Of a stretch of 64,000 nt of DNA, positions 42,047 through 44,703 are shown in pieces. Where the stretch lies: the NCBI RefSeq assembly GCF_000179235.2, contig NZ_CP039373.1, positions 1,519,860 to 1,583,859 of the forward strand, given 5' to 3'. The notes beneath the pieces are model-generated. The model ran no database searches and was not told where the DNA came from. It worked only from the letters and a program-made list of their open reading frames with translations. Position numbers and translations under genes: made by a program. How positions within the stretch are numbered: position 1 is the stretch's first letter; the number at the start of each line of letters is the position of its first letter. Source of the stretch: Synechococcus sp. CB0101. GTDB lineage: Bacteria; Cyanobacteriota; Cyanobacteriia; PCC-6307; Cyanobiaceae.

Positions 42047-43069
42047 TCACTTCCAGTTCTTGGCCACGATCTCGGCAAGGTCAACCACGCGCTGGCTGTA
42101 GCCCCACTCGTTGTCGTACCAGCAGACGATCTTCACCATGTTGCCGCCCATCACCAGGGTGAGATCGGCGTCGACGATCGTGCTCTCATCGGTACCGGCG
42201 TGGTCGCTGGAGACCAGGGGCAGATCGCTGTACTTGATGATCCCCTTCATGCCGTTCTCGGAAGCGGCCTTCAGCACGGCATTCACCTCCTCAGCGGTGG
42301 TGTCGCGACCGGTCTCGAAAACCATGTCGCACACCGACACGTTGGGGGTGGGGACGCGCAGGGCGATACCGCTGAGCTTGCCCTTCACCTCGGGGTACAC
42401 CAGAGCAACGGCCTTGGCAGCGCCGGTGCTGGTGGGAACGATGTTCACGGCGGCGGCGCGGGCGCGGCGCAGGTCGCGGTGGGCGGCATCGAGGATGCGC
42501 TGGTCACCCGTGTAGCTGTGGGTGGTGGTCATCGTGCCCTTCACGATGCCGAAGGCCTGGTCGATCGTTTTCACGATCGGCGCCATGCAGTTGGTGGTGC
42601 AGCTGGCGTTGGAGAGGATGTCCCAATCCTCGTGGCGGTACTGATCGGCGTTCACGCCCACCACGAAGGTGCCCACCTTGGCGCCCTTGCCGGGGGCGGT
42701 GAGGATCACTTTCTTGGCGCCGGCCTCGAAGTGCTTGCTGGCGCCCACGTCGTCGTTGAACACGCCGGTGGACTCGATCACCAGATCGACGCCCCACTCC
42801 TTCCAGGGGAGGTTGGCGGGGTTGCGGTCGTAGAAGGTTTTGATCGTCTTGCCGTTGACGACGATGGTGTCGTCGGTGGTGGTCACCTCTGCGTTGCGCA
42901 GGGGGCCGAGCATCGAGTCGTACTTGAGCAGGTGAGCGTTGGTGTACGTGTCACCTGAACCGTTGATGCCCACCAGCTCAATGCCGGTATTGGCTCCACG
43001 GCTGAGCCAGCAACGCATGAAGTTGCGACCGATACGGCCGAATCCATTGATCGCAACCTTGATGGTCAT
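42047..43069 (-). CDS. gap2: Glyceraldehyde-3-phosphate dehydrogenase, Calvin-cycle (Gap2) type
   Basis: GAPDH interconverts 1,3-bisphosphoglycerate and glyceraldehyde-3-phosphate. Catalytic C157 is in ASCTTN, and [12 protein letters not shown] opens the Rossmann fold. [10 protein letters not shown] and NLPWKEW are typical of the cyanobacterial Gap2 form, which uses NADPH in CO2 fixation. Length 340. A -10-like TATGAT lies 46-51 bases upstream of ATG 43069, with a perfect palindrome just beyond it. Confidence 0.96.
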
Positions 43070-43114
43070 GGCATCGAGCGGGGAAGCCCGCTAGCAAGGG
43101 GGATTTGGCCGCCG

Positions 43115-43120
43115 ATCATA
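43115..43120 (-). promoter_or_regulatory. Possible -10 element of gap2
   Basis: On the minus strand TATGAT (5 of 6 to TATAAT) sits 46-51 bases ahead of the gap2 start, predicting a 5' leader near 38 bases. The -35 zone has no good match and is occupied by the palindrome at 43134-43153, which suggests a regulator-dependent promoter. Confidence 0.4.
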
Positions 43121-43133
43121 CAGAGATCTATTG

Positions 43134-43153
43134 ATGTCCCCATCTGGGGACAT
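43134..43153. promoter_or_regulatory. Perfect palindrome between gap2 and murC, candidate operator
   Basis: ATGTCCCC-ATCT-GGGGACAT: 8-bp arms that match perfectly around a 4-base centre. It covers the -35 region expected for gap2 and is about 110 bases ahead of murC. There is no T-run on either side. A binding site for a dimeric regulator is the natural reading; the regulator is not identified. Confidence 0.6.
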
Positions 43154-43195: not shown

Positions 43196-43260
43196 CAGAC
43201 CGATCCGGGCAGACAAGGGGGACTTCCCGACTTACCGTCACCCCAGGCTTGGAGACGCCC

Positions 43261-44703
43261 TTGGCCCAACAGCTCGATCGCCGTCAACCCCTCCATTTCA
43301 TTGGAGTGGGCGGCATCGGCATGTCGGCCATCGCCGGAATCCTGGCGGATCGGGGCTATGCAGTGAGCGGCTCCGACCCGCGCGACAACGCTGTGCTGCA
43401 GGACCTGCGCAGCCGCGGGGTGCGCGTGTTCCGCGAGCAGAGCGCCACCACCATCGCCGCCATCCGCAGCGGCACCTCCACCCAACCGCTGGTGGTGGTG
43501 AGCTCGGCGGTGCCCGCCACCAATCCAGAACTGCAGGAAGCGCGCAGGGCCGGGCTCGAGATCGCGCACCGCTCTGATGTGCTCGCCGCGATGATCGCCG
43601 CGCAGAGCTCCGTGGCCGTGGCTGGTAGCCATGGCAAAACCACCACCAGCACGCTGATCGCCAGCCTGCTGCACGCCACCGACCACGACCCCACTGCCGT
43701 GATCGGCGGGGTGGTGCCCGCCTTCGGCAGCAACGGGCGTAATGGCAAAGGCGCCCTGCTGGTGGCGGAGGCCGATGAATCCGACGGCACCCTGGTGAAG
43801 TTCCAGGCCTGGTTGGGGGTGATCACCAACCTGGAGCTGGATCACACCGATCACTACGCCGATCTGGTAGCTCTGATCGCCACGCTGCAGCGCTTCGGCC
43901 GCGGCTGCGAGCAGCTGCTGGCCAACCGCGACTGTCCGATTCTCAGCGAGCAATTCAACGCCAGCCACTGGTGGTCGACCACCAACCCAGAGGGGGTGGA
44001 TTTCGCCGCGATTCCGGTGGAGCTCAGCGGTGACAGCACCCTGGCCGAGTTCTACGAACAGGGGCAATGCGTGGGCCGCTTCACCCTGCCGCTGCCGGGG
44101 CTGCACAACCTCAGCAATGCCACGGCGGCGATGGCGGCCTGCCGGCTGCACGGTGTGTCGTTTGCGGAGCTGCGCCTGGCGGTGGAGAGCCTGCAAGCAC
44201 CCGGCCGCCGCTTCGACTACCGCGGCACCTGGGCCGAACGGCAAGTGGTGGATGACTACGCCCATCACCCCAGCGAAGTGGGCGCGACCCTGGCCACCGC
44301 CCAACTGATGGTGAGCAGCGGCCGCAGCCCCCTACCAGAGGTGCCCCAACGGGTGCTGGCGGTGTTCCAGCCCCATCGCTACAGCCGCACCGCCGAATTC
44401 CTAGAACCCTTTGCGGTCGCCCTCGGCCAGGCTGATGAGGTGCTGCTCGCTCCGCTGTATGCGGCGGGCGAAGCGCCGATCGCCGGCATCTCGAGCCACG
44501 CCCTGGCTGCCGCCATCCAACGGCTGCAGCCGGACCTGACCGTGACGGTGACCGACAGCCTCGAGGAGCTCGCCGATGCCGTGGCGCAGCGCAGCCTGCC
44601 GGGTGATCTGGTGCTGGCCATGGGCGCCGGCGATGTGAATGGGCTCTGGGGGCGCCTGCAAAACCGCGAAGACCCCCTGGCCATGTTTCCCCTAGCGGCA
44701 TGA
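43261..44703 (+). CDS. murC: UDP-N-acetylmuramate--L-alanine ligase
   Basis: MurC adds L-Ala to UDP-MurNAc, the first peptide step of peptidoglycan precursors. The nucleotide motif [13 protein letters not shown] is near residue 13, the ATP loop GSHGKTTT near 122, and [10 protein letters not shown] marks the C-terminal domain. I chose TTG at 43261 ([15 protein letters not shown], 480 residues) because GGAG sits six bases upstream; a TTG at 43249 adds four residues but has no ribosome-binding site. The stop overlaps murB (ATGA). Confidence 0.96.

Follow-up and report, generated by a model that had tools for sequence, protein, structure and literature searches.

What is the palindrome between the divergent genes gap2 and murC of Synechococcus sp. 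CB0101 for, which of the two genes does it serve, and which protein might read it? We approached these questions with a stretch of 64,000 nucleotides (the window, G000:C1:1519860-1583859; G000 is the label of the genome it comes from, and other G and L numbers designate compared genomes and loci) and with genomes of the same genus and family. The data point to a new operator and a small regulon with a candidate regulator, and it is from sequence that we infer the identity of this regulator and the sign of its control. No description of the site or of the regulator was found in titles, beginnings of abstracts and text passages, in a literature search that most subscription journals lay outside.

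Positions 43134-43153 of the window, read directly, are exactly ATGTCCCCATCTGGGGACAT, and the palindrome that the initial annotation placed there is thus present without a mismatch. Its layout was given as two arms of eight bases around an ATCT spacer; this part does not stand, since the outer spacer bases also pair and the dyad is 9+2+9. The search pattern that had been recommended, GTCCCC-N6-GGGGAC, does not recover its own site, as the true spacer is 4. Written as TGTCCCC-N4-GGGGACA, the pattern has 1 exact occurrence in the 64-kb window and, with up to 3 mismatches, 2 matches versus 5.2 expected from shuffles, so that palindromes of such composition are not over-represented in the window. 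The palindrome by itself is unremarkable, and its standout property is conservation. As a side observation, the spacer is ATCT in one clade and AGAT elsewhere (AAAT in G001 and G007), a difference that concerns G004, G009, G010 and G014 and that looks like a single inversion of the entire element; two substitutions would be equally sufficient.

Table 1. Positions of the genes and sequence elements discussed in the text (window coordinates, except for the regulator, which is given by genome and contig).
Feature	Position	Strand	Remarks
gap2, Calvin-cycle glyceraldehyde-3-phosphate dehydrogenase	42047..43069	-	Pfam Gp_dh_N and Gp_dh_C; gap2, not gap1, by closest relatives
gap2 -10 box TATGAT	43115..43120	-	in conserved block; 30/30 promoters in one set
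gap2-side palindrome, proposed operator	43134..43153	.	ATGTCCCCA-TC-TGGGGACAT, 9+2+9, read directly
Left heptamer GTCCCCA of 7-2-7 core	43136..43142	.	0 changes in 7 columns (carriers)
Right heptamer TGGGGAC of 7-2-7 core	43145..43151	.	2 changes in 7 columns (carriers)
murC, divergent neighbour	43249..44703	+	Pfam Mur ligase domains
LuxR/NarL-type candidate regulator, 228 aa	G000:C1:190029-190712	-	encoded past cp12; GerE domain

Pfam upholds both flanking genes and with them the placement of the palindrome between divergent gap2 and murC. Two further statements of the initial annotation also agree with our reading, namely that TATGAT lies 13 bases from the palindrome toward gap2, on the minus strand, and that gap2 has no normal -35, none being recognisable by eye. 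In a larger set of 79 gap2 promoters (80 loci minus L142, in which the gene start is absent), TAGGAT replaces TATGAT in 5. The distance between the 18-bp core and the gap2 -10 is 14-16 across genomes, while the stretch between palindrome and murC has undergone rearrangements of tens of bases in some of them. The near-fixed distance on one side and the rearrangements on the other indicate that the site belongs to gap2. The gap2 promoters of other genera have the -10 in common, no clear -35 by eye and no palindrome, and the idea that all relatives have some palindrome at the gap2 -35 was rejected (mean shuffle p = 0.53 over 91 distinct promoters).

Gap2 promoters could be read in 24 of the 25 genomes of the genus (in G002 no gap2 was found), and 20 of these 24 have the core GTCCCCA-NN-TGGGGAC with no more than 1 mismatch over its 14 bases. 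In these promoters the site stays at a similar distance from the -10, and the earlier proposal of a dedicated operator covering the gap2 -35 is supported as far as sequence can tell. A single mismatch is seen in G010, G013, G018 and G020, and the core is absent from G006, G016, G017 (a broken site with 3 mismatches) and G019. The exact core, GTCCCCANNTGGGGAC, occurs in 16 of the 25 genomes, in each of them as a single exact copy that is always at gap2; a REP-like dispersed repeat, for which many intergenic copies would be expected, was rejected on these grounds. Among the 79 gap2 promoters, the loci with at most 3 mismatches all match genomes of the genus, and the remaining loci have at least 4. 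The site is absent from L083, L085 and L086 too, though their Gap2 proteins show 96-97% identity and cluster with genus members in the gap2 gene tree (with weak support).

Phylogenetic footprinting, which had been recommended, shows how narrowly this conservation is confined. Along the gap2 coding tree of the carriers (G006, G016, G017 and G019 are left out of the counts, and G010, whose full coding sequence is absent, is left out of the tree), the 14 core columns have 2 changes, versus 133 changes in the 40 columns upstream of the site (3.3 per site). The rates are 1.5 per site in the spacer, 3.0 and 3.5 in the outer AT pairs, 4.75 in the 8 columns toward the -10, and 1.68 at gap2 third codon positions. 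With the non-carriers retained, 17 changes fall in the 14 columns of the two arms and 172 in the 40 upstream columns. As the heptamers are conserved while spacer and flanks change, the unit under selection is two heptamers 2 bp apart. An unconserved palindrome with no copies near promoters had been named as the outcome that would count against an operator; instead, the palindrome is kept in most of the genus, and sister sites lie before cp12 and a small gene.

These sister sites emerge from an extended form, TGYCCCCRNNYGGGGRYA, which was framed after the sites were seen and occurs at exactly three places in G000, before gap2, cp12 and LGRTCLKW (0.24 expected genome-wide); all three fit NNCCCCRNNYGGGGNN exactly. 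The third one, at 385431, is non-coding and precedes a small gene, MATCLGRTCLKW (LGRTCLKW), by 77 bp; genes similar to it with a core nearby are found in G020 (L249) and G276 (L320). A further string, CCCCANNTGGGG, has 9 occurrences in G000, of which 7 are in coding frames according to a codon-usage ORF call, and the other two are the gap2 site and 191274, upstream of cp12.

The cp12-side site takes the form TGCCCCCA or CGACCCCA-NN-TGGGGGTA with variable ends and is present in 18 of the 19 native regulator loci, G007 being the one without. CP12 was recognised next to it in 15 of these 18 loci, the exceptions being G004, G014 and G017. In an alignment of 18 genomes, from which G007 was left out for want of a site and in which two island copies were not counted, the 11 core columns have 0 changes versus 3.8 and 4.1 per site on the flanks, a footprint that is conditional on presence because the regular expression used to pick the sites demands the core. 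A coding nature of the site was considered, as the ORF call had stretched a divergent lipoprotein-like ORF upstream through it, and was rejected: the signal-peptide-like start of that ORF lies after the site and cp12 lies on the opposite side, so that we take the site as intergenic. A TAGCTGT block follows in G000, 31.5 bp from the centre of the site; it is kept in most, not all, genomes, and we tentatively regard it as the cp12 -10. The regulator gene follows cp12 on the same strand at about 290 bp, a gap that makes a single transcript less than certain.

For CCCCRNNYGGGG, G000 has 24 matches, all of which were inspected, and the reversed control has 36, which shows no general excess; a looser motif gave 80 matches genome-wide versus 414 for its reversed control, and a second loose count was similar. 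As loose counts are not above the reversed control, they lend no support to a wide regulon built on this sequence. A broad carbon-fixation regulon is likewise unsupported, the strict pattern giving three sites in G000 and hence none at Rubisco or PRK. A poorer fit to TGYCCCCRNNYGGGGRYA is seen in three further intergenic cores of G000, two of them close to a sigma-70-like and a uvrA-like gene, respectively, and one after an RNA-methyltransferase-like gene (names by eye). In G020, 10 of the 19 core matches (the gap2 match apart) were inspected and 5 of them were intergenic, one before cp12, one before an LGSTCMKW gene and three without evident link, for example near atpC, a transporter-like or a P450-like gene (names by eye).

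Two observations on individual sites may be added. At G000:C1:279979-279990 (L373), CCCCGTTTGGGG lies 79 bp upstream of a sigma-70 family-like gene and 27 bp past a lipase-like gene (both by eye), and could be either a terminator or a site. In G013, both psbA copies (L160 and L178) have tandem palindromes, CCCCAAATGGGG and CCCCATTTGGGG, at -252 and -215 from the ATG. We did not accept psbA as a regulon member in general, since none of the 10 inspected G020 core matches (of 19), nor the gap2 one, is at psbA.

The gene position of the candidate regulator, past cp12, and its HTH domain are observed directly. The C-terminal GerE/LuxR HTH (PF00196) scores 55.6 bits versus a cut-off of 23.5. The N-terminal receiver match (PF00072, residues 48-105) scores 18.9 bits, below the cut-off of 30.2. 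Sequence relatives in the PDB include DesR, NarL, DevR and VraR, and the matches to DevR, VraR and FixJ cover part of the receiver. A search at E <= 1e-60 detects the regulator in 112 of 400 family genomes, 18 in the window's genus and 94 outside. Picking the regulator by counts of LuxR-type proteins per genome was abandoned for lack of power, as every genome has several.

How well would such a protein fit the site? According to the parts of the literature available to us, NarL dimers bind 7-2-7 sites, and an engineered E. coli NarL site, TACCCCTAAAGGGGTA, has CCCC at heptamer positions 3-6, inverted heptamers and a 2-bp spacer, as does the gap2 site (PMC4549865). GTCCCCA-NN-TGGGGAC thus has the inverted heptamer layout of a NarL-type site. 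The outer bases differ, TACYYMT in NarL sites and GTCCCCA or GCCCCCA here. In register, GTCCCCA departs from the E. coli heptamer TACYYMT at 3 of 7 positions; the best fit to the consensus is out of register, with 4 of 14 positions wrong. At the protein level, the likeness to NarL and FixJ lies in a GerE HTH above the Pfam cut-off, whereas the receiver match is below its cut-off. The targets differ as well, since NarL controls nitrate genes and the proposed targets here are GAPDH and CP12 genes.

Among cyanobacterial proteins, PedR is similar in being a LuxR-type HTH protein that acts on photosynthesis and carbon genes, going by the portion of the source at hand (PMC13421787). The candidate differs in having 228 aa with an N-terminal receiver-like part. 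It scores 35 bits versus the NCBIfam PedR cut-off of 120, and the PedR motif RWWTRGGYNNYY has 2 of 10 positions wrong at the gap2 site, so neither comparison identifies it as PedR. The earlier impression that the site belongs to neither NtcA nor RpaB agrees with the best fits, which have 4 of 6 positions wrong for GTA-N8-TAC and 7 of 16 wrong for the HLR1 element KTTACAWW-N2-KTTACAWW (consensus from the part of PMC13421787 available).

The link between regulator and site extends to other genera. Among the 15 best-scoring of the 94 regulator loci outside the genus, a selection that does not represent all 94, an exact CCCCANNTGGGG is present upstream in 6 and missing in 9; in four of the 6 it is 73-108 bp before the regulator gene, in the other two about 780 bp away. 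When TGTCCCCANNTGGGGACA was searched in the 400 family genomes with at most 1 mismatch, matches appeared in 12 genomes outside the genus, and in 4 with the reversed control. Eight of the 12 have the match at a common locus that precedes a DUF1830 gene; a ninth (G395) has it 52 bp past a copy of the regulator. We rejected the idea that the DUF1830-side matches are the end of an insertion sequence, as the loci contain ordinary genes.

The locus around DUF1830 forms an accessory island. Its genes are a 68%-identical regulator, CP12, glgC, DUF3136 and aldose epimerase, to which fuller loci add ferredoxin, pterin dehydratase and a transketolase-like gene (identities by Pfam on one or two copies, and by eye in the others). 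It holds several intergenic CCCC-RNNY-GGGG palindromes (L311-L318 and L320, from other genera and G006). In eight of ten island loci (L311-L318) a palindrome lies directly before DUF1830; L320 has a palindrome with no adjoining DUF1830 called, and L319 is the reverse. The MSQATFTT form of DUF3136 has the core directly before it in 7 of 7 loci, and a different DUF3136-like ORF, in L312, has no core.

Within the genus, loss of the gap2 site shows a modest association with absence of the native regulator. The latter is missing in three of the four genomes without the gap2 site (G006, G016 and G019) and is present in the fourth, G017; in G006, the absence of the gap2 site goes along with the presence of the DUF1830 island. 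In G007 and G014, the regulator gene is decayed and the gap2 core intact, and G010 has a regulator remnant and a core that is one base off. A further point against a tight link is that the regulator occurs in 94 genomes outside the genus, and the gap2 promoters read from other genera have no such site. The Fisher table of regulator presence against gap2 site (16,1;3,3) gives p=0.04 with phylogeny ignored. It leaves out G002 and G022 (68% complete, regulator not found), and it scores G011 and G012, with a stop or frame break in the regulator as read, as present and G006, with an island-type copy only, as lacking.

Together, these findings suggest a model in which the palindrome is probably the gap2 operator of the CP12-linked LuxR/NarL-type regulator, its candidate binder. 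A dimer of the regulator would read the two inverted NNCCCCA heptamers with their 2-bp spacing. Further targets of this protein would be the site before the LGRTCLKW small gene and the matching one ahead of cp12 and the regulator's own gene, where binding would amount to autoregulation. The sites and their positions are observed; binding by this protein, the sign at each promoter and the signal are what we infer from them. At gap2, the site is centred about 36 bp ahead of the expected start and covers the -35, where occupancy would most likely block RNA polymerase. At cp12, the centre would be at roughly -43 if TAGCTGT is the -10, a position suiting activation, which we favour there under that premise. 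A single switch may thereby reduce Gap2, the enzyme, and increase CP12, its protein inhibitor. As CP12 inhibits GAPDH and PRK in darkness, according to the text available of PMC11257934, less gap2 and more cp12 would make a coherent response to darkness or low energy.

The sign at gap2 admits an opposite reading, in which the same regulator at the same operator activates gap2 from its overlap with the -35, in place of the missing -35 contact. We lean moderately towards repression and consider activation the less likely option, even though no -35 hexamer is seen by eye and NarL, in the part of the source available, is able to activate with one 7-2-7 site at -44.5 and from further upstream (PMC7419079). 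The gap2 centre is closer to the start than these activating positions, and the spacing to the -10 varies by 1-2 bp among genomes. The gap2 promoters of other genera, with the same -10 and no clear -35, manage without the site, so that an activator is not obviously needed. RpaB, for its part, represses when its site overlaps this region, from -38 to +23, as stated in the portion of PMC13421787 at hand. It is also conceivable, though to our minds unlikely and just behind activation in this respect, that the operator common to gap2 and cp12 is genuine and is read by another transcription factor, LuxR-type or of another family, the regulator gene on the cp12 side being one of its targets. G000 has 11 GerE matches, so another LuxR-type protein could bind, and the gap2 cores that survive next to a decayed native regulator in G007 and G014 fit this view. 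It is harder to reconcile with the exact cores directly upstream of this very regulator's gene in some other genera, with the several sites on islands that carry a copy of it, and with the partial coincidence of regulator and site losses.

Two further readings do without a dedicated gap2 operator. That the palindrome controls murC, or murC and gap2 both, is suggested by the common intergenic region in which it lies; we regard this as very improbable given the nearly constant distance to the gap2 -10 and the rearranged murC side. Still harder to credit is that the palindrome arose by chance or serves as a REP-like repeat or terminator hairpin, with no role as an operator. The deficit of near-matches in the window relative to shuffles and the loose genome-wide counts are in line with chance, but the arms have near-zero substitution, all 16 genomes that have an exact copy have it once and at gap2, and no annotated gene reads into the palindrome.

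On the preferred reading, with the regulator acting through these sites, a wider picture is possible, which we offer tentatively and at less than even confidence: a so far undescribed regulon of freshwater picocyanobacteria, in which the CP12-linked LuxR/NarL-type regulator sets Gap2 and CP12 oppositely, other energy genes have been recruited in different genera (glgC with DUF3136, DUF1830, ferredoxin, psbA, LGRTCLKW small proteins), and the module is also mobile in the form of an accessory island. Descriptions of how cyanobacteria control the Calvin cycle deal mostly with proteins, CP12 locking GAPDH and PRK, by what the accessible text of PMC11257934 conveys. In this CP12-GAPDH-PRK system, Gap2 and CP12 are the same partners as here and the known control is protein binding and redox, whereas the common DNA site suggests joint transcriptional control. 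If this is true, a DNA site common to GAPDH and CP12 genes adds a transcriptional layer that sets enzyme and inhibitor jointly.

Some features of gap2 control elsewhere bear comparison. The Synechocystis gap2 promoter studied by Figge et al. in 2000 reportedly, by the title of that work, has a conserved enhancer element and a -16 box, and would thus resemble the present case in having a carbon-controlled gap2 with a conserved upstream element. PrqR influences gap2 in Synechocystis and is reported to do so without binding to gap2, in the part of the source available (PMC5007503). The sRNAs Yfr1 and Yfr10 have a proposed action on gap2 in Prochlorococcus, likewise from part of the source (PMC6778093). 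In the window's genus, the gap2 5' leader contains a hairpin, GCGGG..CCCGC, right before the ATG (window 43070-43110; upstream regions of L019-L048), with a shorter GCGG..CCGC form in the leaders of several other genera; translational or sRNA control is a possibility.

The gap2 promoters of L123, L127, L128, L129 and L132, which are MAGs of other genera, contain another dyad, CCCAGGCC-N8-GGCCTGGG or variants of it that are longer or shorter. Its centre is at -24.5 from TATGAT, as for most palindromes of the window's genus, and an unrelated operator may occupy this position. One of the five, L128 (CALPNT020000174.1), is titled Bifidobacterium breve yet holds a cyanobacterial gap2 with its promoter, so that the bin looks mislabelled or mixed.
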